The notes beneath the pieces are model-generated. The model searched no databases. It worked only from the letters and a program-made list of their open reading frames with translations, and was not told the DNA's origin. Positions 4,860-50,687 of a stretch of DNA of 64,000 bases are shown one piece after another; the stretch's first letter is position 1, and each line of letters starts with the position of its first letter. Source of the stretch: Quercus robur (taxonomy: Eukaryota > Streptophyta > Magnoliopsida > Fagales > Fagaceae). The DNA is taken from the NCBI RefSeq assembly GCF_932294415.1, contig NC_065539.1, forward strand, positions 49,619,501 to 49,683,500, in the 5' to 3' direction. The position numbers and the translations under genes are program-made.

Positions 4860-6292
4860 TTAAACAAAAAAAATAAGCCTAAATCCTGCCATTGTTTTTC
4901 CTTCTTTTGTTGGACTTCCAAAATGAAGTTGAAAATTGGAGTAAACCTCTTCTAAATATATTAAACCTTGCGAACGTTGACAATGATCTCATCTTGTTTT
5001 TGCACTTGTTCTCTCTTTTCTGCCTTTTCCCATCACTGTTGTGATCTTGTGCTCATAAGGGACCCATCAAATTCTTTTGATTCTGTGTTTCTAATTTATT
5101 ATTGTGGTGAGAAAGGTTTAACCTTTGCTCATCATATGGAAGAACCATACTCTCCACATTATATACACACAGTCCAAAACAATCTGACTCTATATTTTGA
5201 ATCACAGTTCTTTTAGAATTATTTAGAAGATTGTAGATGACTATTTTCTTAAGGTTCACCTCCATTAAAACATCACCGTTATTGGTGAAACACAATGGCC
5301 TCAAATGCCCCTCAACATTGGGAATGACAAACAATTTTTCCCAAGATTCTTCCACCCCATATTTCTTCATTACCCAAGTCTCAAGGTGGCTTCCATTGGG
5401 ATCGTATGATAGAGAAAGGCATCCACCTAAAACCCCCAGCTCAAACTCTAAAACCCCCAACTCAAACTCTGAATATTTATCTAACATGCAAGGTAATGGC
5501 AACTCATAGAAGTGTTCTTTAGCCGGATCAAAATAAACCAGTGCCACTTATAAAGATTTAGAATTGACTTCCGTATTATATTCTTCACGGCGAAGAACCC
5601 AATGGGGAGCTCCATTCAAAGTAACCCCTTGTGTGCTAGAATCAAAATTGTAAGGAAATCCATTGTCATCAATTTTTTTCAAAGTATTGGTCCTGAAAGA
5701 GTAGGTAGAGATGGAAAAATATTTAAGAGCATCATAATAATCGCTGGGTGAGACTGTTGGACTTGCTGTATGAGATACCAACACAGCCTTGTAATCATCA
5801 GAGGAAGAATCATAACCAAGTCCACACGAGTAAACCACAATAATGACCCGTAATATCATAGTCTAATTCAAACATATCATGTGTACCAGAAGATGGGTTC
5901 CACAGATAAAGATAAAAACGATAATAAACAAGTAACAAATTGTTGCAAGAGCCCAAGATATCTGGGGTTTCTCTTCCAAAAATAAACAAGTCGAGAGATT
6001 TCGTTTCAAGCATGAAGCCATTGTAATCTATGATATTAAGCCAGGCGGAGAAGGCACGAGAATTTATATCTTTGCATTGCTCAATGCAGCCGCATCTCCA
6101 AAGGGTCATGTTGTCGTTAGGCTCGTTGGCGCTGTCATAGCGTGCTTTGGCAAACTCAGAGCTTGAAATCAAAGAACACCATGTTTTGCATACGGACTTA
6201 AATCGCTGTAGAGATTTGACGGGGAGTCTTTTTAGTACGTCATGCACGATGTCCTCTGGAATGTTTTGTGAAAAAAATCTTGGGTTTTCCAT
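4860..6292 (-). pseudogene. F-box/FBA pseudogene, paralogue of 470-1651
   Basis: Starts at an ATG at 6292 ([10 protein letters not shown]) and carries a good F-box ([17 protein letters not shown]). Compared with the paralogue, the frame shifts near 5850 around the CGLGYDSSS motif, and a TAA replaces a valine codon near 5548, just before the ALVYFDPAKE block. The remaining FBA part is open to 5053 and includes a direct repeat of FELGVL. Its C-terminus (ESMVLPYDEQRLN and on to the stop) shows what the paralogue at 470-1651 has lost. The 3' flank at 4820-5050 also aligns with 230-470, so the whole unit was duplicated. Confidence 0.85.
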
Positions 6293-6544
6293 GATTTTCA
6301 AGAACCTGTTTGTGAAAGGTTACTAGATTTTTGTTTTTTTTTTTGGTCTTCTTATATGGTTGATGCTAGGGTTTTTTCTCCATTTTATATGGCGGCGTTG
6401 TAACTTTTAAGGCCAAGAATCGTTATTTGTTTGGGCCTTTTTTAATTGGGTTGACTTCCTTAGTAGTTTAACAGGCTGAAGATATAAAGCTAAATCCAAT
6501 TACATTATACGTAACAGCCCATGGATGCATATGAAAGCCCATTT

Positions 6545-7704: not shown

Positions 7705-10700
7705 TCACTTAATATACTTGGCAAACCAGTCCAACAGGTTCTGATGGGCCTCCTCAGCAGACTTCACAGCTACTTCATCTTCATCCTCGTACCTAGTTGT
7801 CCACCCATGTGAGACTTTTGGAAATATCTTGACATAGAAATCCACCTGAAAAGAATCAAACATTATTTGATTACTATCAAATGGAAAAACTAGGAAAACA
7901 TTAGAGAAGGTAACACCAAAATAGCTTGATTGCACCAACAAACTATAGCCTCAATATGGAAGATTGGCCTAAGTTAGTTAAAAGGTATTTAAAGGAAAAA
8001 GGCAGATCACCATGATGAATATCTGTTTATTGTTTAAAATGATTTAATAACATTAACTAGCCAAAACCAAAGATTCTATGATCACATCATCAAAACCAAA
8101 GCCAAAGATCCATCATCAAATGCAAAAATTGGGAGAACATGGGAAAAAGTTACACTAATATAGATTGATTGCTGATTGCTAAGAAAACTATAGCCCTAGT
8201 AAGAAAAGATTGACCTAAGTTAAGGTGTTTCAAGGACAAGATGATGAATCACCATGATGAAAATTTATTTGTTTGATTGAAAAGATTTGACACATTAACG
8301 CCGGCCAAAATGGGCATTTACCCCTAATTTAAAAACTATGTAACAAAATGCCCTTGTTTTTTAACCTCAAAGATCCATCAAATCAGGGGTAAATACCCAT
8401 TTTCCCCTACTTAGCCTGCCCCAACCTATATGTTTACAACAAAAGCCCAGCTCAAAGATGCCTTAACATTAGTAGCCAAAATGCCACCAAAGAAGAAGTC
8501 ATGATATAACAGAGGATAAGGCAAAAGATTCATGTAACCAATTTCATGTTTTGAAAACTTTTGTTACATAGAAGAAATACGTGCAGTTAGCTTGCCAAAA
8601 ATTGTAATTTATCAAGCCAAAAATCTTATCCCAATGCAGGAGGGATCTAGAGATATGGCATGAGCATGCTTCAGCCAGCGCCTGGCCACATAACACAAGA
8701 TTAGTAGGGTGAACACTCTATTACCATTCATTCTTTCATCTAGAAAACCAAGAAAAATACTCTTGAGATGAAACTAATGCTAAAAGTATGAAATTTAGGC
8801 TAAAAGGATCATAGTTATGTTCCAAATATTCCAATACGTAAAAATTAAATGCAGCCAGTCAACCCTCAATAGAAGAATGATGAACCGGCATTGTTACCAA
8901 AATGTTATTATCTAAGAAGAAGAAAAAATCATAACCAGAAAAGGTTGAGGTATATAAAATAATGTAACAGCTAAGCACTGTAAAGAAGCACGGTAAGGAT
9001 TTGATCTTCCTACCTTAGATTGAGAAGTTAAGGCCTCATCATATTGTTTCAAGAGTTCGGGTGGAGCAATATGGTCAATTTCAGCTCCTAGTACTGCAAT
9101 GGGAACCTTAACACCTGAAATCAATCCCCAAATACCAGTTAACTATGACACAAAATTGTTATTTTTTTTTCTTCCTTGTACTTGTACTCTTACTAGAAAA
9201 TAGATAAATTTAGCAAGTCCTGGTCTGCAAGCAACTTGATTGTAGAAAAAAAAAATATTGGAACAAGAATTGATTTACATTTTACAACAACCAGGGGAAA
9301 TGCAAAATTATGACAGAAAAGGAGTTATGTAAGATTAAATCATTGTAAACCTGCATGCCAATAGCAAAAAATATCCTTTGACCTCGAGAAAGGAAAGAAG
9401 CAAACTTACAAAGTCAGGTACTTGTGATTACTAATGACTTCCAATATTTTAATTGCTAAAGTTTAATAAGAGCTAGAAGTTTTTTCTTGAGAGTCCTTCA
9501 AAAGACACTGTTACATTCTGAAATTGCAAACTAACAATCTAGCGAAACTAATATAAAGCTCTTGAAAAAGTTATGCAATGGGATCCATTCAAATCCATAC
9601 CCTTGATATCATCCACTGTTACCCATGCAGGATGTAATATCACTGCAGCTTGGATAAGTTCAACTTTTGAAAGTTCAACCACAACCTTACCTGAGCAGTG
9701 AGAAGAATGTAAAATTTCAAATGTCAGAATTTTTTTCAAGCAATAAAATGCTGTATAAAGTTACAAGAAAAGAAAGACAAGAAGAATTAATAGAGAAAAA
9801 CTCACCACCCCAGCAAAAGCCTGCAGCCCCAACTGAAGAAGCACCTTTACTTTTCAAAGTTTCAATTATTGGCTTTGCCTCTTCAAATCCTTTATCCTAT
9901 AGAAATAATAATTGAGCTTCAGATACTATTAGTGAAAACTGAAATTTGCATAGCAATATGTAGAAAACTGCGATATTAGGGTCAGTGGGTCACCAATTTT
10001 AACCCAGGTCACAGAAAGTGGACACAGCCAACTAGTTCAATAATTTATGAAGTATGAACCATATGTTGCTTACAGCAATAACAATAAAGCAATTGTACAG
10101 CTGAATTCATACACATATTCAGACAGCCTAACATGCAAAATACCAAACCCCACAATGGAGGCCTTCAGAATATAATCTCAAATGAAAATGTAGCAATACA
10201 TTCAAGTTTCACAAAAGGTTCACTGTGACAAAAAAAATTTCTCTTTGATAAGTAAAAAACAAACTTATAAACAATTTCCAGGCAAAAATTAAAATCTAGA
10301 ACCAACCGTTCCATGATCCTTCAACCAAACTTCTAGAGGATTATTAGCAATATCTTCGAGCACAAAGGGTTCTCGTATGAAGTCAGGAACTACCACATAA
10401 TATCCAGCAGCTGAAACCTTGTCTGCAAGCTTCCTTTTATATATAAAGCAGCTAACATTAGTTTCAGAAGCTAAAAAAAGCACAAACTCACAATGTTGAT
10501 TATTTGTGACTGTCTTTATGAACATGCATGAGAGATCACAACTTCACTTTTTTAGTGGAAAAATTATGATTGTTGCACTTATTATTCAAAGCAACATAAT
10601 ATAGCTTTGAATAGACAATTACACGCTAGTATTTGAAAGTGTATTTGACCAAGTTAGGCCAGCTAAATTTCAGAGTGATGGGTTTAAATTTTAACAAATA

Positions 10701-12613
10701 TATTGCCACCTAAACGAAAAATCGCAATGTAAGTTATGCCTTACATACAGAATGACTTGTTAAAAACAGCATAATCTGATGGACTAGGCAAAATTCATAA
10801 ACTAAACGAAGAAAAGAGAGAGAATTAAGCATACCTCAATTTTGGAGCTTCATATCCTGCAGGAAAAATCAAACACAAAAAGTTGGAACATGATAGTGGT
10901 AATGAATTAACATAGCCAATAATTGTTCAACAAGAATTTCACCACTTCCATATTAATTTTCGATACCCAACCAAGCCCAGAACAGAAAAACAAATAAATA
11001 GTATAAAAACAATAAATAAATAAATAAGCATTTTTTTTTTTACGTGAATGCCTAAAACAAATACACTTGTGACTAAAAGTCTCTGTCTCTCTGATAAATT
11101 ATACAGGGGAGGGTTTGGATTTTGGAGCACTTAATCTCTCATTTTAATCCTATAACAAATTACCAATTCTCTTTTGAAACAATAAGAAATGATGAATTTA
11201 ATTATTTACAATATTATTCTAAGTTCTCACACTCTGGTTACTAGTAAGGAGAAACAGAAAAGGAACTAATTTAATATATATAATAGGACTAGATTCAAAT
11301 ACTTAAACTTTTAAATTAAGTAATGTATCACTATATAGTATTATGAGCCGTAATAGTTAAACATTGTGTACAAGACAATTGAAATCGTGTTATATAATTA
11401 TAAAATTGTGTTTTCAAAATATGATTTCACCGTCTCATAATTATAATTGAAATTGTATTTTCAAAATGCGGTTTCAGCTCAAATGTGTAACTCATTGTGT
11501 GTAACAATAATTAGCACAATATTATATTAAGGAGTATTGTATATGTTAAGGAGTGTTGTTACAGACAAAATTCCCTTTAAATTAGTTTGGAGAAAAACTT
11601 TTCAAACTCCTCTTATATATTTTTATTAGATGTGAATTTTGAAATTCTAACCGTTGAATTGCATTTTCTTTATATTCTTAGTACACATGTCAAATTTCAT
11701 TCAAATCGAATATTATTATTTTCTTTCAATCAATATACTTATTATTTATGCATAATTTTATACCACAAAAACTTGAAATATAAACATTTGATTGATGACA
11801 TAAATATTGATATTTAATCTTTTTGAAATTTTGTAAGTATAGAGAATATAATAAAAACATATATACAATCTAATGGTTGAATTTTAAAATTTTATATTCA
11901 ATAAAAAGATATATGAGAAGTTTGGAGGGTTTTGAAGAGAAACATTTTCCTATTGTTACCAGATGATCTCGGTAACACTCCAATCATTAGGAAAATAATA
12001 CTCATATTTTGAAGCAACATACAGATTAATGAAGATAAAATATGAACCTCTGATACTAATAGAAATCTTTTTTTTTTTGTTTTGGGTTCTCTCCAGAATT
12101 TCCAAGGATCAGGAATTTCGAAGGCCCCTATGTTATCACAGAATTTCCAAGGATCAGGAACTTCCATTTCTGAATGATTACTGGAGGTGCTAATCAATTT
12201 ACCGCCAGATTCATGTATATATAACCCAATTATTCATTAACCATAAAAGTCAACGCCTAGGTTACAGTTTGGAGTGAAAAACCAATAACTTTTCACAAAA
12301 TATTTTACAGCTACTTACTGAGGTGACAAATTCTTAATAGTAGATTATAAAATGATGTATGTAATGGATCTATACTAAAACTAATAAAAACCCAACAGTT
12401 GTGAAAATTATTGCCTTGGAAAAAAGTGAGTAAAGAAGCCAAGTATCAAAGAAACGTGCAAGTACCAAAGATGTCAGAGATGAGAATGATGGCATGCTTG
12501 GCATTAGGGGAGCCAGTGACATAGGTGCTGAGACCACAGAGTTGTTCAACATGGCCAGCTCCAGCACTTGGGTCTAAAGTTGGTGGGTTAGAGCAGCACT
12601 GATGTCCTGCCAT
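7705..12613 (-). CDS. Dienelactone hydrolase family protein (DLH-1)
   Basis: Seven exons: 12466-12613, 10835-10856, 10307-10433, 9806-9896, 9601-9690, 9014-9114 and 7705-7845. They sum to 720 bp (239 residues plus stop), all with GT-AG borders and consistent phase. The start MAGHQCCSNPP matches the paralogues. It is an alpha/beta hydrolase of the DLH family with nucleophile Cys127 in GFCWGG, Asp173 in GAEIDHIAPP and His206 in VSHGW. Plant members are often annotated as endo-1,3;1,4-beta-glucanase-like, but their true substrate is uncertain. No signal peptide is seen, so a cytosolic enzyme is likely. The segment FIREPFVLEDIANNP (75-89) differs from FFNGDPxVPDDANRP in the other two genes. Intron 1 (1.6 kb) carries a MITE. 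The gene appears intact. Confidence 0.93.
11555..11955. mobile_element. Long-TIR foldback MITE in intron 1 of DLH-1
   Basis: The two halves are imperfect inverted repeats (11575-11680 against about 11850-11945). The inner sequence matches the family seen at 14397-14792 and 16563-16958, including the block 'atttgattgatgacat'. It is noncoding. The outer borders are approximate. Confidence 0.65.
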
Positions 12614-13697: not shown

Positions 13698-15227
13698 ATC
13701 ATTTTTTTTTTCCCATCACCCACAATCAACCATCTCGTAGCAGTAACCCCACAACAGTATACCAATATCAATTAGTACCAAAACATTTTGTTCTTCTAGC
13801 AAAACTGAAACGGTCTATGGTATGAAATTAATAGGACCAAATTGACAAAAATAAAATTTATGGGATCAAAATGACAATTGACCAAACTTAATTGATGTAA
13901 TTTGCATTTTTGTTTTCTTTTTTTTTTTTTTTTTTGCACGTCAAGTCAACTGATGATAATTACGACATGGTAAAAGAACTTATTACAAATTTACTCCAAT
14001 CAATTATGCATTTTACCTAATCATTCACTTAAAATTTTATTTTGATACCCAAAATAAAATTATTAATTTGATGTTTCGTTGAAGACATCTCCTTTGCCAA
14101 GAATTTTGGAATTAAACTACCAAATCTTAGCTAAAATCACTTTTTTCATTTACCAACAATGTTTTTCTACAAGAGCCAGATTATTTATTTTTAATAATTC
14201 AACAGTTACAATAGGGAGATTTGAACATTGAATCTCTCTATTAAAAATATTAGGAGGTGTTAATTAGTTGAAGTACAAAATTGGACCTACACAACTAATA
14301 AAAGTAAAGTGTTGGTAATAATATGAGAGTACTGTGAGTGTGCTAAAAGCCTAAAAGGAAGAAGTTCCATAGTTGGGGTTAATTATATAGAATAAGGGCT
14401 AAATTTGACAGCAAATTTTGTTGTAGTTTAAAATTACAACTTTACTCAATACTTTTTTATTGGATGTAAATTTTGAGAAATCTACTGTTGAATTACATTT
14501 TCTTCTTATATTCTTTATGTTTGCAAAGTTTTCAAAAGATTAAATATCAATAGCTATGTCATCAATCAAATGTTTAAATTTTAATTTTTTGTAGTCTAAA
14601 ATTATGCATAGAAATAAGTTTATAGATCGAATAGTAAATAAAATCCAACTGGTAGAAAATTTTACATGTGTGTTAAGAACATAAAGAAAATGCAATTCAA
14701 CGATTAAATTTTCAAAATTTGTTGTCATGTTAATTTTTTAAGTGAGAGTTATAACTTTAAACTACAATCAAATTTGTAACCAAATTTTGTCCATAAAATA
14801 ATATTAATTAACATATAATTAGATTATTTTACACAAAATATAAATATTAGTTTTGTTTTTCCTTCCTATAGTAGAAACTTAAAGCACAAGGTCATTCTAG
14901 GAGATTTGATCATCCTTTAGATTGGCTAATTAAAATTGATGAGACCAATAGAGTATAGAGTCATAGAGTGTCACTAATTTTATTTTGTTATTTTTTTTTT
15001 TTTTTGAAAGCTGACCATTCTATTAGTATCATCAAACCGAAAGGAACAGGCTAACGAATAACTATAACAACAACAAATAGAAAATACAAATAAAGCAAAC
15101 CAACTCAACTATCTTGTATTCTAGTTATAATAACAACAAAACAAGTAAGACAAACACAAATAAAACGAATCAACTCAAATCTCAATATCAGAATCCGTCT
15201 TAACCACCCCGCCCCCCCAAAAACAAA

Positions 15228-15680: not shown

Positions 15681-16320
15681 ATTTTTTTTTTCCATCATCC
15701 ACAATCAACCATCTCATAGCAGTAACCCCACAATAGTATACCAATATCAATTAGTATCAAAACATTTCGTTCTTCTAGCAAAACTGAAACGGTCTATGGT
15801 ATGAAATTAATAGAACCAAATTGACAAAAATAAAATTTATGGGATCAAAATGACAATTGACCAAACTTAATGAATGTAATTTGCATTTTTGTTTTCTATT
15901 TTTTTTTTTTTTTTGCACGTCAAGTCAACTGATGATAATTAAGACATGGTAAAAGAACTTATTACAAATTTACTCCAATCAATTATGCATATACCTAATC
16001 ATTCACTTAAAATTTTATTTTGATACCCCAAAATAAAATTATTAATTTGATGTTTCATTGAAGACATCTCCTTTGCCAAGAATTTTGGAATTAAACTACC
16101 AAATCTTAGCTAAAATCACTTTTTCCATTTACCAACAATGTTTTTCTACAAGAGCCAGATTATTTATTTTTAATAATTCAATAGTTACAATATGGAGATT
16201 TGAATATTGAATCTCTCTATTAAAAATATTAGGAGGTGTTAATTAGTTGAGGTACAAAATTGGACCTACACAACTAATAAAAGTAAAGTGTTGGTAATTG
16301 TGGAGACTTTTTGCCTCAGC

Positions 16321-16558
16321 TCGGCCAATAGCTTGCTTGTAACCAATTTTGGCTTGAATCCCACATCGAAGGAAAACCCCCCCACTTGCTGCCTTATAAG
16401 CTGTGAAGCTAAGGGAGTAGTGTATCACCAAGCATCTGATCAGAGGCTTGGTGGTACACTACTCCCTTAGCTTCACAGCTTATAAGGCAGCAAGTGGGGG
16501 GGTTTTCCTTCGATGTGGGATTCAAGCCAAAATTGGTTACAAGCAAGCTATTGGCCGA
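16321..16558. repeat. Near-perfect spacerless palindrome (2 x 119 bp)
   Basis: Bases 16321-16439 and the reverse complement of 16440-16558 agree at 117 of 119 positions by my reading. The centre lies between 16439 and 16440 in the palindrome TCTGATCAGA, with no spacer. Each arm contains ATCCCACATCG and, 26 bp later, TATAA. It is present only in unit B of the tandem duplication. It is noncoding; transcripts would form a perfect hairpin. It could be an inverted duplication of a promoter fragment or a foldback element. Confidence 0.95.
16358..16399 (+). promoter_or_regulatory. USE-like plus TATA motif pair in the left palindrome arm (mirrored in the right arm)
   Basis: ATCCCACATCG at 16358-16368 fits the plant snRNA upstream sequence element RTCCCACATCG exactly. 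TATAA follows at 16395-16399. The centre-to-centre distance of about 34 bp fits the Pol II-type spacing of plant U-snRNA genes. The right arm carries the same pair in reverse, pointing at the centre. No snRNA body is visible, so function is doubtful. Similar motifs also occur in some retroelement ends. Confidence 0.4.
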
Positions 16559-16562
16559 TAAA

Positions 16563-16958
16563 GGCTAAATTTGACAGCAAATTTGGTTGTAGTCTAAGAC
16601 TACAACTTTACTCAATACTTTTTTATTGGATGTGAATTTTGAGAAATCTACTGTTGAATTACATTTTCTTCTTATATCCTTTATGTTTGCAAAGTTTTCA
16701 AAAGATTAAATATCAATAGCTATGTCATCAATCAAATGTTTAAATTTTAATTTTTTGTAGTCTAAAATTATGCCTAGAAATAAGTTTATAGATCGAATAG
16801 TAAATAAAATCCAACTGGTAGAAAATTTTACATGTGTGTTAAGAACATAAAGAAAATACAATTCGACGGTTAAATTTTCAAAATTTGTTGTCATGTTAAT
16901 TTTTTAAGTGAGAGTTGTAGCTTTAAACTACAATCAAATTTGTAACCAAATTTTGTCC
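16563..16958. mobile_element. Long-TIR foldback MITE, copy in unit B
   Basis: Duplicate of the element at 14397-14792, nearly identical, with the same ends. Its left end directly abuts the palindrome-bearing insert. Confidence 0.7.
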
Positions 16959-17881
16959 ATAAAATAATATTAATTAACATATAATTAGATTATTTTACAC
17001 AAAATATAAATATTAGTTTTTTTTTTTCCTTCCTATAGTAGAAACTTAAAGCACAAGGTCATTCTATGAGATTTGATCATCCTTTAGATTGGCTAATTAA
17101 AATTGATGAGACCAATAGAGTATAGAGTCATAGAGTGTCACTAATTTTATTTTATTTTATTTTTTGTTGAAAGCTGACTATTCTATTAGTATCATCAAAC
17201 CGAAAGGAACAGGCTAACTAATAACAATAACAACAACAAATAGAAAATACAAATAAAGCAAACCAACTCAACTATCTTGTATTCTAGTTATAATAACAAC
17301 AAAACAAGTAAGACAAACACAAATAAAACGAATCAACTCAAATCTCAATATCAGAATCCGTCTTAACCACCCACCACCCCCCCCCCCCCCCATAACAAAA
17401 AAATATATATATAAAAAAAAATAAAAAAAAAGTAAAAAAAAATAAAAACAGAAAGGAAGAAGAACATGGATAGAAATAGAATTTTATGAATGCGGGCCAA
17501 AATAATTATAATAAAAAATATAAAATTGAATCAATTTAATAGTATCATATAAGAAATATGAAGAGTTTGGGAGGGGGGTTAACCATATTTCTTTTGAAAA
17601 TTTTAGGTAAATTTAGAGGTAAAAATCTAATATTTAAGAAGTTTGGAGGACCAACCATATATTTTTTGAAAAATTTAGGAAGCTTTAGGGGTAATTTTAT
17701 AAAATTAGAAAAGTTTGGACGGGCCACCCTTCTAAGTGGTCCACCCCTGAAGAAGAAGAAGCCAATTTTTTTTTTTTTTTTTTTTTTTTTTGATAAAGAA
17801 GAAGAAGAAGAAGCCAAATTGGAACAAATAACAAAATAAAAATGAATTCTTAAAAAGTGAAAGAAACACATAATGTTTGTG

Positions 17882-20010: not shown

Positions 20011-20551
20011 ACAAGTTGATGTTTTCTAGTTGAACACAAGAATAGAAAATGTTATCCTTCATTATAATTTATATACCTTTCTTTTTAGATATAATATATA
20101 TGTTTGATCCGCAAACCTTTCTTTTTTAAAACTACATCACTATCTTACTCATTTCACGAGTTGATGTTTTTTTTTTTTTTTTTCTTTTTTTTGAGGGAAA
20201 GTTTCAACCTATGGCGTTCGTTTCTGATAATAGCTCTTTATCATTATACCAAGACACCAATCAGTTTTTGATGGAGGCGGGAATTGAACTCCAGATCACT
20301 TATACAACCATCAGAGATTTTACCAGTTGAGCTAACTGGAACCCACACAAGTTGATGTTTTCTAATTGCGCATAAGAATAGAAAATGTGATCCTTCATTA
20401 TAATTTATAAACCTTTCTTTTTTTATACTATATATATGTTTGATCCTTCACCACAAGCCTTTCTTTTTTAAAACTACATCACTATCTTACTCATTTCACA
20501 AGTTGATGTTTGTAATTGCGCACAAGAATAAAAAATATAATCCTTCATTAT
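20011..20551. repeat. Minisatellite of about 150-bp units, broken by two elements
   Basis: Units begin 'aca(a/c)gagttgatgttt'-like. Unit 1 is 20011-20155; unit 2 is 20347-20497, with its start also duplicated at 20156-20170 by the SINE. Unit 3 is 20498-20551 and continues at 24429-24549 after the LTR element. All share 'aaactacatcactat' near their ends. Confidence 0.85.
20171..20346 (-). mobile_element. tRNA-derived SINE, copy 2
   Basis: Target duplication acgagttgatgtttt / acaagttgatgtttt (20156-20170 and 20347-20361, one mismatch). On the minus strand it opens 'gtgggttccagttagctcaa', with A box TAGCTCAACTGG and B box GGAGTTCAATTCC, and ends in a long A tail. This is the best-preserved copy of the family here. 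It landed at the border of two minisatellite units. Confidence 0.92.
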
Positions 20552-22319
20552 TGTAAGGACTCGATTTGTAACGACCCAAAATGATACTGGGTTCACACGT
20601 AAATAGGCCCAAACAATATCATTTATAGAGCGTGGGTTTGGAAGGCTGGGCCTTGGTCACCGGACGGTGGTTAGTCGTGGTGTTCATACAGAATTAAATC
20701 GTGTTCGCTCAAGGAGTCTTTCTCCTAGAGGCAGACTGGGAGGCTCTGGTTTTTTGGCCTTTTTTCCTAGCCCCTTCTCCCGGATTGCTTGTTCCTCTTT
20801 TTATATTAGCCTGTATTCCTTATCCTTCGTCCACGTGTAGGATCGACTTTTTCCAAGACTGATACTTGTCCCATCAGCCCATACCCAAAGTGGTTGGGGG
20901 TGGTTGTAAAAGTTGAAGAGCATGGCTCTGTCAGGTGCAGAATGCTTTATTGCAGTTCTGGCAGCCTTTTACTTGTGCTGTTTCCGCACTGTGATCACTC
21001 TTCCTTTTAGGGGCATTTATGGCATGCTGAGCAGGAGCTCGTCCTCGGCCCTTTCCTTAGGCCATCCTCGACTCTCATGGTGCGTCATCGGCCTTGTATC
21101 TCCTCGGCGCAGGCCCTGAGCCTTAACATGAAAATGGGCTGGGGTCACAAATTCTCTGGCCCCACAATAGCCCTTCAAAATCTTGCTATCCGACCTCTTG
21201 GTCGGAGAGGAGGGTTTTGGTGATGCCACATTTTTATTGTGGTTTGCTTAGATCTACCCTTCATCAATGCGGGTGTCTCTTCATCTATCTAGGAAACACG
21301 TCGGACTACGAGACATTCCTTTAAATTCATTCACGATGCGCTCTTGCCGTTTCAATGTTCGAGACGTGTCTTTAATGATTTCCCTTTACGAGACCATTTA
21401 AATCCGACGGTTATTGACGGCGCGGGGAAGTGGAGTGGGTATATTCCCGTTTACAGATTTTCTTGGAAATTTGGATAGATTAAATGCCTCCCGTTTTGTC
21501 CTTCATATAAGAAGAAAGGCAAGAGGTTACTTCTCTTACTCAGAGACCTTTTAATCCTTTTAAAGTCTGAAACCCTTAGCCTCCCCCAGAGTTTCCCTTA
21601 TCTGCTCGCTTACACCTTGAATTGTGATACGTCTGAGATAGGAGCGGGAATGAAGAGACCATACCCATCCCAGAAATGCCATGTTCTTCTGAAGCTCAAA
21701 ATGGCTCGGTTAGGGCAGGGATGGCAGAGACTCAAGATACTTCTCATCCTCCCTTCAGCCAAAATCCGAAGTAAGGGCTCGTCGCGTCAAACTTTTGGTG
21801 CGACTGAGCTGGGGTCACCCGTTATCAGTACCAGTCGCTCTCTTATGAGCATAGCTAACATGGCACCAGCGTGTTAGGAGTCAGGACTGACGCAGGGACA
21901 AAGTATCCCTGCTTCTTCCTCTCTTCCTTCACTGGTTCCTCCTTTTGCCTCCCCTTGTTCTTCTTTCCCATCACCAGATCCATCCTGGTACTTTTCCTTC
22001 TTCCTCTTCTTCTCCTCTTCCACCAAGGGAGGTCCTCCTCTCAATATGGGTGCTACTGGGGCAGAATTTGGAAAGACTTCGGATCAGAGCTTAAAAAGAC
22101 TTCTTGTCGTTTGTTTGTTTGTTTTTTTTTTTTTTTTTTGCAATTCGTTTTCTGTATAGGCTTGTTTAAGCCCTTCATTGTACGCTGCAATACCTCTTTA
22201 TATTAATAAAAGTCAACATCGCTTTATTTTGTATATTCTACCTCTTTTTTCTGAAATGGTTATGCCGTAAATAGACGTACTACCATATGACTTCTTTTTT
22301 ATTTTTATAATCTAAACAA

Positions 22320-22600: not shown

Positions 22601-22941
22601 CGGTACATACCCCAAAACAGCCAAGATGACAGCTGAATACTCGGTGCGGTGTAAGAGGTAACCATCCGAGGATGGGTGGTTCAAAGGTGGACCGTCCATG
22701 GGGGCCGCCAAGTACTTAGAGTGTTTCGCCGCCTTCCTAATGGCTTTTGTAGCCTTGGTCCTTTTTTGGTATCTAGTCCGAGGACCGAGGTACGATCATG
22801 CCGAGCTCAAACGCTCGTTCGCATCAATTCCCTTAGAGCTGAGGCTCTGAGGACAGATCGAGATCTTCATTATGCCTAGGACTTAATCCGACTTTTAGTA
22901 AATGATCTTCCTGTAGGTCTGAGTAACCTAACATTATTCTT

Positions 22942-23620
22942 AAGTAGTTGGTTTCCCCATAGGTTTGAGTCCGAGAATCATGTAATACCTTGGTTCTGTC
23001 CAAAACTTGATTTCTAAGTAGTTGGTTTCCCCATAGGTTTGAGTCCGAGGACTATGCAATACCTTGGTTTTGTCCAAAACTTGATTTTTAAGTAGTTGGT
23101 TTCCCCATAGGTTTGAGTCTGAGGACCATGCAATACCTTGGTTCTGTCCAAAACTTGATTTTTAAGTAGTTGGTTTCCCCATAGGTTTGAGTCCGAGGAC
23201 CATGCAATACATTGGTTCTGTCCAAAACTTAGTTTTTAAGTAGTTAGTTTCCCCATAGGTTTGAGTCCGAGGACCATGCAATACCTTGGTTCTGTCCAAA
23301 ACTTGATTTCTTAAGTAGTTGGTTTCCCCATAGGTTTGAGTCCGAGGACCATGCAATACCTTAGTTCTGTCCAAAACTTGATTTCTAAGTAGTTGGTTTC
23401 CCCATAGGTTTGAGTCCAAGGACCATGCAATACCTTGGTTCTGTCCAAAACTTAATTTCTAAGTAGTTGGTTTCTCCATAAGTTTGAGTCCGAGGACCAT
23501 GCAATACCTTGGTTCTGTCCAAAACTTAGTTTTTAAGTAGTTGGTTTCCTCATAGGTTTGAGTCCGAGGACCATGCAATACTTTGATTCTGTCCAAAACT
23601 TGATTTCTAAGTAGTTGGGG
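22942..23620. repeat. 74-bp tandem repeats, nine full units, inside the LTR element
   Basis: The block 'aagtagttggtttccccata' starts at 22942, 23016, 23090, 23164, 23238, 23313, 23387, 23461 and 23535, with a partial unit at 23609. The period is 74 bp (once 75). Unit length is not a multiple of three, so it is not a coding repeat. Confidence 0.95.
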
Positions 23621-24428
23621 GAATTAACCCCTCGGCTATGGCGTGGGACCTTGGTTTAGGGGGGTTAGCTCCTCGGCCAAGCCCCTAGAACCATCTGTGC
23701 TGCTATCACTATGAAGCGCAGCCCCTAGTGAAGAAACGTAGCCCCTAGCGGAACTCTACGCCCACCGCTTGTGCCAACACACAAGCCTTCCCCACAGACG
23801 GCGCCAATTGTAAGGACTCAATTTGTAACGACCTAAAACGATACTGGGTTTGCATGTAAATAAGCCCAAACAATATCATTTATAGAGCGTGGGTTTGGAA
23901 GGTTAGGCCTTGGTCATCGGACGGTGGTTAGTCGTGGTGTTCGTACAGAATTAAATCGTGTTCGTTCAAGAAGTCTTTCTCCTGGAGGCGGACTAGGAGG
24001 CTCTGGTTTTTTGGCCTTTTTTCCCAGTCCCTTCTCCCGAATTGCTTGTTCCTCTTTTTATATTAGCCTGTATTCCTTATCCTTCGTCCACGTGTAGGAT
24101 CGACTTTTTCCAAAACTAATACTTGTCCCATCAGCCCATACCCAAAGCGGTTGGGGGTGGTTGTAAAAGTTGAAGAGCATGGCTCTGTCAGGTGCAAAAT
24201 GCTTTATTGCAGTTATGGCAGCCTTTTACTTGTGCTGTTTCCGCACTATGATCACTCTTCCTTTTAGGGGCATTTATGGCATGTTGAGCAGGAGCTCGTC
24301 CTCGGCCCTTTCCTTAGGCTGTCCTCGACTCTCATGATACGTCCTCGGCCCTGTATCTCCTCGGCGCAGGCCTTGGGCCTTAACATGAAAATGGGCTGGG
24401 GTCACAAATTCTCTGGCCCCACAATTAT

Positions 24429-26798: not shown

Positions 26799-29700
26799 TC
26801 ACTTCACATACTTAGCAAACCATTCTAACAAGTTCTGATGGGCCTCCTCAGCAGACTTCACAGCTGCCACATCTTCAACACTGTACCTGACTGTCCACCC
26901 GTGTGCAACTTTTGGAAATATCTTAACAAAGCCATCCACCTGAAAAGAATCAAAACATTATTTTATTATTATGAAATGCAATATTTGGAAAAAGTTACAC
27001 CAAGATGGATGCATTGCATGGGCAAACCATGGCCTGGTTTCGAAGATAGACCTCAGGCATTTCAAAGACAAGATGATGAATCACCATATGAACATTTAGT
27101 CATTTGTTCAAAAAGATTGATAACACTTACCCCAACCCCAACCTATCTCTTTACCACCAGAGCCAAAGCCAAAAATGCTATGACGAACATTCATCAAATG
27201 CCAAGGCCAAAAATCCTTAATAAATGCAAAATTTGGGAAAATATGGGGAAAAATATTCTACTTATCAAGTAAAAAAAAACTATCCGAAGAGTCATCTAAT
27301 CATTGAAGAAATGTGCAAAAACAAAGCTGAATAAATAACATGACCAAAAAAATTACTCTCTAAAAGAAACAAATGCTAAACTTAAAGCATGAAATTCAGG
27401 CTAAAGGGCTCCTGGCTATATTTTAATATGTAAAAAATTAAATACAGCCAATCTGCCGTCATTAAAAGAATGATGAAACATCAGTATTAGATTTCCTTCT
27501 TTTTTATATAAAGAAAAGAAGCTTTCATTATTAGAAAGGAAAAGGCATTAATTATAAGATTTCATAAGAAAATAAGGATTTGGTTTTCCTACCTCAGGTT
27601 TAGCAGCTAAGGCCTCTTCAAACTGTTTCAAGAGCGTGGGTGGAGAAAGATGGTCATTTTCAGCTCCTAATACTGCAATAGGAACCTTAACCCCTGAAAT
27701 GAATTCCAAATATTGATCAGTAAACAATGAGACAATCCATTTTTTTTTCCCTTGCACTTGTACCAAAACAGAAGAAATTTAATGTAGAAAAACTCAAAAA
27801 CACCATTGTTAAAGAAATGATTTCTGACAACCAGAATGTATTTTTTAAACAGAAAAGGCATTAAATAAGATTAAATCATTGCAAATCAGTATGCCAGTAG
27901 CAAAAAAAAAAAAGAAAAAGAAATCCATTGACCCCAAGAGGAAGGGAGAAAAAGCAACTTATAGAGTCAGATGCTTGTAATTACTGCCAACATTTAAATT
28001 GATAGAGAATTGATGAGAGCTAGAAATTTTTTCCTGAATGTGCTAAAGACATTTTTAATTTCTGAAATTGCAAACTAATAATATAATAAAACTAATATCA
28101 AGCTTTAGCAAATTTCAAGCACTAGAATCCATACCCTTGATATCATCTACAGTGACAAATGAAGGATGACATAGCACACCAGCTTGGATAAACTCAGCCT
28201 TTGCAAGTTCAACCACAACCTTGGCTGAGAAGAACACAAAAGTTCAAGTATCAGCATTTTTTTCAATCAATAAAATGCTATCTGACTTAAAATGTTAGAA
28301 ATTTAGAATCCTTAATCAAACTTGTTTCAATAGAAAAATAAAGAAACTTAGTCAGGGGAGGGGGTTATAGTGAAACTATGAAGATACACAAAACCAATTC
28401 TTCCCTAACAAGAAATAACTTCTGCACTAGGGTGCTAGTTTGGGAACAAAGAATTAATGATAAAAACTCACCACCCCAGCAAAAGCCAGCAGCCCCAACT
28501 GCAGAAACACCTTTACTTTTTACAGCTTCAATTACTGGCTTTGCCTCCTCAAATCCCTTATCCTTTAGAAAGAATTATAGAGCTTCAGACACTATTAGTG
28601 CATACTAAAAATCACATAGTAATTAGCTGAAAGCTGCAATATCAGGATCATCAATTTCAATCAAGGCCACAAAAGGTTTACACAGCTAGGTAGTTTAATA
28701 ATTTATGAAGTAAGAACAATCTGTTACTTTCAGTAATAATGATAAAGAAGTTATGCAGCTAAATCCACACACATATTCAGACAGCCTAATATGTTGTAAA
28801 ATACCAAACTCACAATCTCAAATGAAAAATGCAGCAATATTTTCAAGTTTCGCAAAAGGGTCCACCATGAGAAAATCAAAATTATAAACAACTTCCATGC
28901 AAGTATTAAAAGATAGAACCAACCGTTCCATGATCCTTCAACCAAACTTGTATAGGCCTATTAGCATCATCCGGCACATAGGGATCTCCATTAAAGAAGT
29001 CAGGAACTACCACAAAAAATCCAGCAGCTGCAACCTTGTCTGCAAGCTTCCTTTAAAAAAAAATTAAAAAAAAAAAAAAGAAAAAATTAGTTTTCAGAAT
29101 GTTACAGATCTGCGTGTCTAAAATGTGTAGAGTACAACTCCAACTTTTAACAGCAAAATCTTTATTGCTGCACTTCTTATTCAAAATAACATGGCATAGC
29201 TTCAAATAGAGAATTACAATCATCTATGTACTCCACTTCCAAATTAGAGAAAAATGAAAGTATTTTAAAGTGCCTAATATTTGACCGAATTAAGTCAACT
29301 AAGTTTCACACTGATGGGTCAAAATTTTAAAGAAATATATGTGTCACCTAAACTAAAAAGTCATAATGTAAAAGGAGTTCACCAACACATAAACACTGTT
29401 ATAACAACCTAATCTGACAGACTATGCAAAACCCATAAACTAAACAAAGAAAAGAGAGATGAAAATTAGCCATACCTCAGGTTTGGAGCCTCATATCCTG
29501 CAGGAAAACTCAAACATGTTAAGATGGAATCATGGAACATGATACTGGTAATGAATTAACATAACCTATTACATATTTTATAGCAGGTACATATGTATCC
29601 ATAGCATCTATATCAATTGTTCAACAAATCCATTCCCACTGCTTCCTTAATACTCATTTTCGATATCCCAACCAAGCCCAACACAGACAAACATATAAAT

Positions 29701-35849: not shown

Positions 35850-36074
35850 TTACTGACCTTCTGGTATCTTCCCCTCTCTTTCCCTCATTGGCAAGCGGGC
35901 CGGTGGACTGTAATTTCCTAAATCCGTGAATTCACATTTCAATTTTTGTAGCTTTTCGGTCACTGCTTCAATTTCCATTTTATTCTTCCCTAATTTCATC
36001 ATTATATTCCTCTCTGCCTGAGCCTGTGTGTTATTCTTCAAGAATCAAAACCAATTTGATTGATTATATTTCCG

Positions 36075-39000
36075 ATGGCTTTTATGGACACAGAAAACGC
36101 TTCCTCCTCCTCTTCTTCTTCTTCTTCTACGCCCGGATGGAAATACGACGTCTTTCTCAGTTTCAGAGGCACCGACACCCGCAAAAACTTCACAGACCAT
36201 CTATACGCGGCGTTGAGTCAGAAAGGCATATTCACATTCAGGGACGATGAAAAGCTTGAGCGAGGAACGTTCATTGCCCCTGAGCTCTTGTCAGCAATTG
36301 AAGACTCGAGATTTGCTGTTGTGATTCTCTCCAGAGACTACGCTTCGTCGAGTTGGTGCTTGATTGAGCTAGCGAAGATAGTTGAGTGCATGGAAAAGAA
36401 GGGGCTCATAGTCCTGCCAGTTTTCCACTACGTGGATCCTAGTGATGTGCGCAATCAGAGAGGGGCTTTTGCTGAAGCGTTTGTTAAACACCAAGAGCGT
36501 TTCAAAGATAAGATAGAGGATGTGTATACGTGGAGAGCTGCTTTGACACAAGTTGCTAGTATTGCTGGATGGGATTTACACGATAAGTAAGATTTTATTT
36601 TTCAATTTAATAATGCTACTTATTGATTTTGTACTTTTAATATTGTTTAATAGTAGCCCAAGAGTTAAGTCCAAATCTGATGACATCCTTTATGGATTTG
36701 AAAAAATGGGTTCTTCATCTTTGAAACTTTGAGCATGACATCTCTGATTTTCTGTCTATATATGATATAGATATTATCTTCCTTGCATGCCTTGTATTAA
36801 CCCATTTGAACTCTGCTTCCCATTGATCAATCTGTCTATATATATATATATATATACAAACAATCCAAAAAGCACTTCTAGATACGTCTTGCGAAACTGT
36901 AGTCACAAAAAATTGCAGAACACACTTATAATATTACTTTCCTTTGTTTGGTTGGGAGGAAGAATGGGAGGAACTTATCAAAAAGAAGAAAAGAAGAAGA
37001 TACAATTAACATACTACAACATGTCTTAGTGAAATAATCTAGAAACAATTTCAACAAATAAAGAATCATATAAAATCAAATTGTCGCTTTCAAAAGGTTT
37101 ATTGAAGGTTGTCAATTTCTAATTTAAATCATACTTTTCAATCATTCTTGACCAAGACCACTATACATTTTCTTTTAAAATTTTATTTGGGGAGGTAGTG
37201 AAACTATACATATCACCATCACCCAAATTATTAATTTTTTCCCCCACAACAATGGCTTACTAATTTATATATTTTTGCAGAACTGCTTAGATAAGCAAAG
37301 ACAAAATCTTTTAAGGCAAATAGTTGGGTCAAAATGCCCAAATATTTAGTTAGTTGCTTGCAGGTTTTACTAGCTAGAAGTGAGTCCAAAGAGCTCTTCT
37401 TTAGAAAGGTTCCTTACATTTTCAGAAAAAGATAAAGAGCTCAAATACATGTTTTATTTGGTTTATTTGTTATATCTTTTCGTATTATGGAACTTAGAGT
37501 TCTCTTTCCCATAACGCATAAATCTAAAAAATATACATTTGTTGAATCTTTTCCCTCGTTCTAGCCTGTGCTAACTCAATAAAATTATTGTCTATCTTCT
37601 TTGTAGACATGAGGCAAAAGTTATTGAAGAGATGGTCAGAAAAATACTTGGTAAATTGAATTCTACATACTCTGTTGTTCACAAGGATCTTGTTGGAATA
37701 AACTCTCGTATGGAGGAAATGGTGAACTTATTAGCCATAGGGTTGAATGATGTTCGCTTTGTAGGAATTTGTGGTATGGGTGGAATGGGCAAAACTACTC
37801 TAGCACGACTCATTTATAACAAACTTCATTATTGTTTTGAAGGTAGCAGCTTTATTGCAAATGTTAGAGAGGAAAGTAAAAAACATGGTCTAGTTCCTTT
37901 ACAGAAACGACTTCTTGCTGATATCTTCCTTGAAAAGAATATTGATTTTCTAGATGTTCAATGGGGAATCAATATGATAGGGAAAAGATTATGTCATAAA
38001 AGGGTTCTTGTCATTCTTGATGATGTGGATCAACTTGATCAATTAGAAGCATTAGTAGGTGAGCGAAATTGGTTTGGTCAAGGAAGCAGAATCATTATAA
38101 CAACTAGATATCAACATCTATTGATAAGGCATGAAGTGGTTAGAGTTGAAATATACAAGGCTAGGAAACTGAATGACGATGAAGCTCTACATTTCTTTAG
38201 TTTGAAAGCCTTTAAGAAGGATTATCCATTAGAAGGTTATGAGGACTTATCCCAGAAGGTTATTTGTTATGCTCAAGGCCTTCCTTTGGCTCTTGAAGTT
38301 TTAGGTCGATTCCTATTTCGTAGAAGTGTAGATGAATGGGAAAGTGCACTATGTAGGCTAAAAGAAAGTCCTGAAAGACAAATTTCGGATGTTCTTAAAA
38401 TAACTTTTGATGGCTTGAGGGAAAGAGAGAAAAACATATTTTTAGACATTGCTTGTTTCTTTAAGGGAATGGAAGAAGATCATGTTGTAAATATATTACA
38501 AGCTCTCTATGACAAGCCAAAAATTGATATAGTTGTTCTTCTGGAAAAGTCTCTCATAACTATCTCATTTGGAAAATTTTGGATGCATGATTTGCTACAA
38601 GAATTGGGTAAGGAAATTGTTCGCTGTGAATCCCCTGAAGAGCCTGGCCGACGTAGTAGGTTGTGGCTTACAGAGGATGTCATTCATGTATTGAAATGTA
38701 ATACGGTAAGATGATTATGTAGGCTCTCAAGCTTTCTTGTGGTATATATTTATGAAAATTCATCTCTATAGCTATACACTCAATCTTTATTTATTTTCTT
38801 AACTAGGGAAAAGAAGTAGTTAAAAGCATATTTCTTGACTCACCTCCAAGAAAAGAGGAACGCTTGAATGCTGAAGCCTTCTCAAAGATGAAAAACTTGA
38901 GATTACTTAAAATCAGTAATGTGCACTTTCCTCAAGGGCTCAAGTATCTTTCTAGCGAGTTACGTTTTATTCACTGGGATGGATATCCTTTAGAATCCAT

Positions 39001-40105
39001 GCCAACAAGTTTTGAGCCAGAAAAACTTGTTGAACTCATTATGCCTTGCAGCCTTGTCAAAGGATTATGGAAAGGAATCAAGGTAAGGTTTTTTTTTTTT
39101 AAATAAAATTTTTAAAAAGAAAAATTAATGTTTATAAGGGCTTAATTTTCTCCATTTGATTGGTGTTTTATAACAGAGTTTAGAGAGGTTAAAACTCATT
39201 GACCTTCGTGACTCTTGGAACTTGATTGAGACTCCGGACTTCACTGAAGTCCCAAATCTTGAGCAGTTGATTCTTCAACATTGTACAAGATTGTCAAAGA
39301 TTCATGAATCCCTTGGAGAACTCAAACGGCTTATTCTATTAGATTTGAATGGTTGTAAATGTCTTAAAAGCCTTCCACACAAGATTAGCCTGGAGTCACT
39401 TAAAGTTTTTATTCTTTCTGGCTGTTCAAGACTAAAAACGTTTCCGGAGATTGTGGGAAATATGTCATGTTTGTTGGAACTTTATTTGGATGGAACTGCT
39501 ATAGAAGAACTTCCATTATCAGTTGAGTGTTTAACCGGCCTTATTAAATTGGATCTAAGTGGAAGTGCTATAAGAGAATGGTCCCGCACTTTTCCCTCCA
39601 ACAATCTTAAAATACTTTCTCTCTCTGGATGTGAAGCACTATTATCTAAATCATCGAATAGGTTTTTCAACTTTCCTCTAATGCCAAGAAGAAGTACTTG
39701 TCCCATGGGCATGTTACAGCGTTCTTTATCAGGCTTATGCTCTTTGACCCAGCTGGATCTAAGTTATTGCAATCTTCAAGCAATCCCCGATGTTCTTGGT
39801 TGCCTATCCTCTTTAACAGAATTATATCTAATGGGAAATAATTTTGTTGGTCTTCCTAAAAGTATCATTCGACTATCTAATCTAGAATTTCTTTTTTTGA
39901 GTGGTTGCACATTTCTTCGATCATTGCCAGAGCTTCCAATTAATATTGGTTATATTCTAGCAGAAGGTTGTACATCATTAGAAACATTACCATTAAGACC
40001 AGAAGATTCTTTTAAGCCATATCTCTCTCTTTTCAATTGTGTAAAATTGATTGACAATCAAGGCTACGACGACATGTTGTTAACAATGCTAAGACATTAC
40101 TTTCA

Positions 40106-40151
<46 letters not shown>

Positions 40152-40974
40152 AGTTCTAAACATCTTGATTTGTGTGTTTCAGGGCAACTTTAAAGAGACA
40201 TCTGGATATGATATGATCATTCCTGGAAGTAAAATCCCAAAATGGTTTAGTTATCATAGTGAGGGGGCTTCACTGAATTTGCAAGTGCCTTCGTTATTAT
40301 GTAATAAATTGATGGGGATCGTTCTGTGTGTTGTTTTTGCACTCCGTGAGCATCATCCACTTGACCTAATTGATTCGGCAAATTGGGGGTTTCTTAGAAT
40401 TACGCATCAGCTTACCTGTTCCTTTAAAGTCAATGGATATGACAAACCCAATAAAAAAGAGTATTGTTTTTCCGAACAATATGGTAAGATTGAATCGAAT
40501 CACCTTTGGGTGAGTTATGTTCCCCCCCCATACTTCAATCAGGTGGAGGAATTAAGTCAAATTGACGCCAAGGTGGAGGAATTAAGTCAAATTGATGCCA
40601 ATGGATTCAATAAGATTGAGTTTGAATTTGAAACCTTCGGTCCAGGATTGGAGATTAAGAAATGTGGGGTCCATTTGGTATTCAAGGAAAATATTGAAGA
40701 TTGCAACCAAACTATGGCTCAGTGCAGCAATAGCAACATCACTCCTTATGAGGATGAATTTGATGATTCAGCAAAAGATTCAAAAAATAAGCGTAGGCGT
40801 AGCCATGATGACTATGATGGGGCTAGACCTAGTGAAGAAGGTAGCTTTAATGACCTACTGCACCCAAAGAGAATACGGCTCCCTAATATCATTGAAAGAT
40901 TTGTGCCACGTTTGGGAAATTTGATTGGGAATTTAAGCACACAAGATGACTCTGACGATGAGAAATCCCAGTAA
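36075..40974 (+). CDS. TIR-NBS-LRR disease resistance protein with C-JID domain
   Basis: Five exons (36075-36586, 37607-38705, 38807-39082, 39177-40106 and 40183-40974) join in frame to 1202 residues. TIR domain 22-165 (YDVFLSFRGTDTRKNF), with the presumed NADase glutamate E98 in SSWCLIEL. NB-ARC: P-loop GMGGMGKTT (227-235), kinase-2 ILDDVD (307-312), GLPLAL (395-400), FLDIACFFKG and MHD (497-499). Leucine-rich repeats fill exons 3-4. A C-JID (post-LRR) domain starts near 950 (IPGSKIPKWFSYHSEG). The tail holds a duplicated VEELSQIDA(K/N) and a basic KNKRRR (1140-1145), a possible nuclear signal. By family knowledge it is an intracellular immune receptor that senses a pathogen effector and signals through EDS1. 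All key motifs are present. Intron 1 is 1.0 kb. The start is preceded by a second in-frame ATG choice (residue 4). Confidence 0.96.
40107..40182 (+). other. Very short CT-repeat intron of the resistance gene
   Basis: Intron 4 is only 76 bp, and nearly half is a (CT)n microsatellite starting right after the GT donor. Repeat length changes could affect splicing. If retained, the frame runs to a stop within the repeat end, giving a protein without the C-JID region. Confidence 0.85.
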
Positions 40975-50590: not shown

Positions 50591-50687
50591 AATTGAGCTT
50601 TAGAGACTCGATTTCCAGGTGTGAAAATATTGCCACATCGAACATGATCAGACCATGGAAATCGAGTCTTTGAGACTCGATTTATAG

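Follow-up and report, generated by a model that had tools for sequence, protein, structure and literature searches.

How did a long and almost perfect palindrome come to stand in one of two neighboring copies of the same genomic segment, and does it have a function there? The locus that raises this question lies in a 64,000-nucleotide stretch of the Quercus robur genome (contig NC_065539.1, positions 49,619,501 to 49,683,500 of the forward strand). The whole of this stretch is called the window below, and all coordinates are counted from its first base. The analysis presented here shows that the palindrome is real and suggests that it is rare, that its cause is probably an ordinary one, and that, unusual as it is, it probably has no function.

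A Spacerless Palindrome in the Window

The preliminary description reported a 238-bp palindrome at positions 16321–16558, with no spacer and with 117 of 119 arm positions matched, and we recovered exactly this structure. The left arm (16321–16439, + strand) and the right arm (16440–16558, - strand) are each 119 nt long, have 0 nt between them and are complementary at 117/119 positions. The outer 104 bp (16321–16424 in the left arm) are perfectly paired, and the two mismatched pairs are 16425/16454 and 16434/16445. We scanned the window for spacerless palindromes with a mismatch penalty of 3, taking every centre except those in the outer 150 nt at either end. This palindrome scored 111, and the runner-up anywhere scored 13. 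A passage in PMC7999016 cites 718 spacerless palindromes longer than 200 bp, with no more than four mismatches, in the human genome.

A second copy of the arm or of the palindrome was not found within the 64-kb window. When the arm was compared with the window by blastn (E up to 10), only matches of 11–22 nt were returned beyond the palindrome itself. Neither the viral contigs nor the prokaryote genome contigs that were searched had an exact match to patterns of 20–23 nt taken from the arms (0 in each), and a distant blastn search of the arm against plasmids gave no match; these misses carry little weight because the collections are not of plant DNA.

The Insertion Site and the Sister Unit

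Of the two tandem 2-kb units, a single one was said to have the palindrome, and comparison of the units agrees with this. The first unit (about 13.7–15.7 kb) lacks the palindrome and the second (about 15.7–17.9 kb) contains it. The two stretches in which the units were aligned revealed 46 differences over 1451 sites (25/636 and 21/815). The length of the replaced sequence, previously put at about 80–90 bp, has to be corrected: according to the unit alignment, 72 bp of the sister unit (14320–14391, + strand) are absent from the palindrome unit. They are replaced by an insert at 16299–16558, which consists of 22 nt followed by the palindrome. These 22 nt (16299–16320, + strand) continue the insert on the left side only, since they are absent from both the sister unit and the right arm, and no convincing match that could reveal their source was found within the window.

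Next to the replaced segment, the sister unit contains a 397-bp element (14396–14792, + strand). The alignment of its terminal inverted repeats covers about 55 columns. Its two 9-bp flanks, ATAGAATAA on the left and ATAAAATAA on the right, were read directly from the sequence and are alike in 8 of 9 positions. By these 9-bp duplications we take it to be a Mutator-like (MULE-like) MITE. The copy in the palindrome unit (16563–16958, + strand) is 97% identical to it over 396 columns; one of the differences between the two copies is at the first base of the MITE. Here the right flank ATAAAATAA is kept, and the left 9-bp flank is gone save for ATAA, whose initial A doubles as the final base of the palindrome. 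As a target duplication that has been lost would hardly arise again, the sister unit, in which both flanks are retained, likely shows the older state.

A partial and diverged (79%) copy of the MITE was revealed on the other strand at 11635–11922, together with a short piece in the opposite sense at 11620–11679. The copy was considered as a third locus that could serve as an outgroup, and it was rejected because it stops short of the junction.

The edges of the palindrome and of the insert were examined for target duplications by comparing 15 nt per side, and none was found. These flanks share no word longer than TTTG in the case of the palindrome and TAAAG in that of the insert; neither of the two words abuts both edges, and the insert thus has no target duplication.

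Facing Promoter-Like Modules in the Arms

Each arm contains an upstream sequence element (USE) of plant snRNA genes, a feature that was overlooked in the preliminary description. The element is identical at 11 of 11 positions in both arms to the consensus RTCCCACATCG given in passages of PMC4448504 and PMC9845283. Pattern scans placed it at 16358–16368 (+ strand, ATCCCACATCG) in the left arm and at 16511–16521 (- strand) in the right arm, where it likewise faces inward. A passage in PMC545797 prints the element one C shorter, as RTCCACATCG, which is taken here for a misprint. The left element is followed after 25 bp by a TATA-like box, TTATAA (16394–16399, + strand), and the mirror box in the right arm lies at 16480–16485 (- strand). 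The gap between the element and the box is exactly 25 bp in each arm, and the distance between their centers is 33 bp, or about three helical turns.

The exact 11-mer occurs twice in the whole window, both times inside the palindrome and pointing inward. A search for the element together with the box, with up to three mismatches, revealed no site elsewhere in the 64 kb; its two matches are both exact and both palindromic. At this tolerance, shuffled windows contained 0.67 matches on average, and 16 of 100 reached at least two. We also made 200,000 dinucleotide shuffles of the arm and searched both strands: the element appeared in 1 of them, and the element with TATAA at 22–28 bp in 0, figures that measure rarity and do not amount to a blind test, because the motif had been recognised before testing. 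When a single mismatch was tolerated, the USE by itself matched a third site in the window (50631–50640), and 14 of 100 shuffles gave at least three such sites. Weight attaches only to the exact 11-mer that is accompanied by a correctly spaced TATA box.

In plants, the element is placed near -70 and the TATA box at -28 to -30 in the relevant passage of PMC9845283, and near -60 (the element) in that of PMC12889822. The former also states that in U6 and U3 genes, transcribed by RNA polymerase III (Pol III), the element lies one helical turn nearer to the TATA box than the four turns found in Pol II genes. As far as can be judged from the sequence, the spacing in the arms is of the Pol III (U6/U3) type, and each arm looks like a putative snRNA-type promoter that might be active. 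According to a passage in PMC12268498, 70-bp U6/U3 promoters with both elements suffice in dicots in most cases tested (all but 2 of the 14 worked), and the consensus of the TATA box is looser than that of the USE. A point against this reading is that the TATA-like box of the arms, CTTATAAG, is unlike the GTTTATA given as the soybean U6 form in an excerpt of PMC4448504.

The arms share with the type-3 Pol III promoters of plants (U6, U3, telomerase RNA and the like) an exact USE, a TATA-like box and a spacing of about three turns, features described in parts of PMC9845283, PMC11961915, PMC12133305, and PMC12268498. They differ from these promoters in being arranged as two opposed copies within a palindrome, with no recognisable RNA gene downstream. 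Among the titles and abstract openings listed from the open-access literature, none described a palindrome of facing plant snRNA-type promoters, and this absence counts as weak evidence. What is new at the locus is that two predicted promoters face each other.

If the distance from the first T of TTATAA to the start of transcription is taken as 28–31 nt, the predicted starts fall at the center of the palindrome, at 16422–16425 (+ strand) and, by symmetry, at 16454–16457 (- strand). The USE then begins 64–67 nt ahead of the predicted start. Between the predicted start and the mirror point there are 15–18 nt, too short a stretch for an RNA gene to be recognised.

The Central Repeat and the Age of the Palindrome

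The center of the palindrome, at 16426–16453, is occupied by an 8-bp inverted repeat, CACCAAGC/GCTTGGTG, whose halves are separated by 12 nt. We propose this repeat as the possible seed of a fold-back event. The two arm mismatches are located 6 and 15 positions from the center and flank this exact 8-bp repeat. The probability that random placement would bring both of them into the inner 15 of 119 positions is 0.015, a value computed after the data had been seen. The mismatches could be later mutations in a once-perfect palindrome.

The palindrome was previously thought to be young. That it is derived stands, given that the sister unit keeps both MITE flanks; its youth does not follow from the number of arm differences, 2 of 119 against the 3.8 expected at the divergence of the units themselves (P of two or fewer = 0.27). 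Thus, on number alone, the palindrome need not be much younger than the unit duplication. The probability of 0 arm differences is 0.023, and it is relevant only if both mismatches were inherited.

A Proposed Break-Repair Origin

The presence of a central repeat between perfect outer arms makes a copied strand that folded back and was extended over itself the simplest history. In our judgement the chances are about even that the palindrome is a break-repair product, built from a copied fragment of an snRNA-type promoter that was duplicated in inverted orientation by fold-back priming. The history would have begun with the insertion of the MULE-like MITE, followed by tandem duplication of the ~2-kb segment. 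The second unit would then have been broken at or very near the left end of the MITE, with the loss of 72 bp, and about 140 bp would have been copied from elsewhere in the genome, running through the USE and the TATA box to what was probably the start of a small-RNA gene. The new strand would have folded on the short inverted repeat at the gene start and primed synthesis over itself, so producing a second arm that was halted 22 nt short, and its end would have been joined at ATAA. The anatomy, the promoter elements and their spacing, the likely older state of the sister unit, the unequal arm ends and the lack of a target duplication are features of the locus itself; the break, the source locus and the fold-back priming are steps that the repair model would add to them, and any activity of the promoters would likewise be an addition.

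Both halves of this scheme have counterparts in known systems. Templated filler DNA at plant breaks is described in parts of PMC8395108, and the insert resembles it in being foreign to the locus, in the loss of target sequence, in the ATAA at one join and in the absence of a target duplication. An insert of this kind would match the traces of templated filler rather than those of transposons. It differs from the fillers described there in that it continues as its own inverted copy, and its donor is putative. For the second half, a passage in PMC7999016 describes palindromic duplications that arose in Mre11- or Sae2-deficient yeast through inverted repeats of 5–9 bp with spacers of 3–12 bp. Fold-back-primed palindromes of yeast and mammalian cells, as presented in the same source, are similar to ours in their long spacerless arms, the mismatches at the central repeat and the perfect outer arms. 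They are found at a chromosome end or in an amplicon, unlike the small insertion at a plant locus considered here, for which the mechanism is read from the DNA sequence alone. That the evidence for fold-back on short repeats comes from repair-deficient yeast and not from wild-type plants counts against the repair model.

Two parts of the model may be specified further. The join lies within 5 bp of the MITE end, which suggests, as a weaker inference, that the break arose from transposase action at this end. As to the source of the arm, we lean toward an snRNA-type gene rather than a transposon with the same promoter module, because of the spacing of the elements. The module might instead come from an LTR or from another transposon. 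Motifs of this kind may occur in plant LTRs. A plant retrotransposon described as carrying the USE was not present among the matches listed for the open-access literature, again weak evidence of absence.

If the break-repair reading is true, the locus provides a clear example of the birth of a long spacerless palindrome in a plant, with the older state preserved in the adjoining sister unit and with a short central inverted repeat marking the point of fold-back. The facing promoters of Pol III type would then make a natural test of function with nearly colliding starts.

A Transposon as a Possible Source of the Palindrome

It is possible, if rather unlikely, that the palindrome is a fold-back or hairpin transposon, or a fragment of one, that contains an snRNA-like promoter module, or else an LTR fragment with the same module that became palindromic. 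MITEs and fold-back elements typically have long complementary arms, and the palindrome, with its long inverted repeat, adjoins a MITE. The structure of the insertion differs from that left by such elements: no target duplication is present, the arm ends are unequal by 22 nt, and 72 bp of the target are lost. The window, moreover, contains no second copy of the arm or palindrome.

Predicted Transcripts and Their Folding

The preliminary description stated that any transcript through the palindrome would form a long hairpin. Folding bears this out, as the RNA of the whole palindrome reached -232.9 kcal/mol against a mean of -70.1 in 200 shuffles (z = -32.7; 0/200 as good). Transcripts from the predicted arm promoters would have another form. 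The rightward transcript would run from the center to TTTT at 16503–16506 (+ strand) in the facing arm, a candidate Pol III stop revealed by a motif scan, and would be about 83–85 nt long; the mirror TTTT, to which the same role may be assigned, is at 16376–16373 (- strand). Because these transcripts would start at the center and cover one arm before reaching TTTT, they would not form the long hairpin, which would be possible only from a transcript entering from outside the palindrome.

On these grounds we consider it improbable that the palindrome is a young hairpin RNA gene, whose through-transcript is cut into siRNAs or represents an incipient miRNA. The stability of the through-transcript would suit such a gene; the promoters that can be recognised start inside the palindrome and would not span both arms. 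The Rfam results point the same way. No match at the gathering score was found in the whole window. When the 501 bases at 16200–16700 were searched at E up to 5, ten matches were obtained, all of them (10/10) below the gathering scores. The best were mir-2804 (35.6 bits, cut-off 86) and mir-971 (29.4 bits, cut-off 53), located at the palindrome center on both strands with E-values from 1.5e-05 (mir-2804) to 0.001. Such matches might favor a hairpin gene, but we read their small E-values as the effect of a perfect hairpin meeting hairpin models. ARAGORN, run with the bacterial code, detected 0 tRNA genes.

Still less probable, in our estimate, is that the palindrome has been selected as a two-way Pol III cassette, with short structured RNAs transcribed from each strand. 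We regard it as similarly improbable that the palindrome belongs to a family of mobile or recurrent hairpins in which facing type-3 Pol III promoters form a self-contained cassette for short RNAs of both strands. The element, the TATA box and TTTT are present on both strands at Pol III spacing, and the predicted 85-nt RNA folds better than its shuffles (z = -4.60; 0/200 as good). This stability is due to the central stem-loop (16422–16457, -20.5 kcal/mol, z = -5.72), which includes both mismatches and the predicted starts and which the palindrome guarantees. The other 49 nt have a z of -1.14, and 27/200 shuffles were as good. A functional small RNA was accordingly rejected as a candidate, the predicted transcript being no more stable than shuffles beyond the central stem. 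In addition, facing starts about 30 bp apart should interfere with each other, and TTTT would be a minimal stop. In our view, the absence of a selected function is the most likely state of the palindrome.

Fold-back reads are known to yield spacerless palindromes, but an assembly or library fold-back artefact, which would usually mirror the flank itself, is the least credible explanation and has no support in the anatomy of the locus, because both outer flanks take up the ordinary unit sequence again in register with the other unit, and the unequal arm ends and the local loss of target also speak against it.

Other Features of the Window

The GC content of the window varies from 26 to 43% in 2-kb steps. 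With this composition and with the F-box and TIR-NB-LRR genes described below, the window has the look of plant nuclear DNA, and the TIR-NB-LRR domains at 36–41 kb fit a dicot. In the palindrome unit, a run of 26 T at 17766–17791 precedes GATAA, with a copy of GAAGAAGAAGAAGCCAA on either side; it is absent from the matching place in the first unit. The run resembles a retrotransposon insertion on the - strand of which only the tail was inserted, with a target duplication around it. A tandem array at 22941–23618, in a stretch of raised GC, consists of about 9 copies of a 74-bp unit that are 93% alike. The segment at 20550–20849 recurs across this array, at 23807–24106, with 94% identity.

Three exon-like frames on the - strand (8915–9142, 27551–27778, and 47480–47713) lie over a repeated stretch, a fourth copy of which, at 2368–2458, has no long frame. 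Two of the three frames showed weak similarity, below the cut-off, to alpha/beta-hydrolase or dienelactone-hydrolase models, and the frame at 8915–9142 showed none. They are possibly members of a tandem gene family. F-box genes were identified with Pfam at 470–1885 and 5053–6301, and parts of them repeat at 86–94% identity about 4.6 kb apart. The second copy, perhaps a pseudogene, is divided into two separate frames, and Pfam gave no match for the first of them. Finally, TIR, NB-ARC, LRR and C-JID domains were revealed by Pfam in successive frames at 36060–40974, which identifies a TIR-NB-LRR immune receptor gene.
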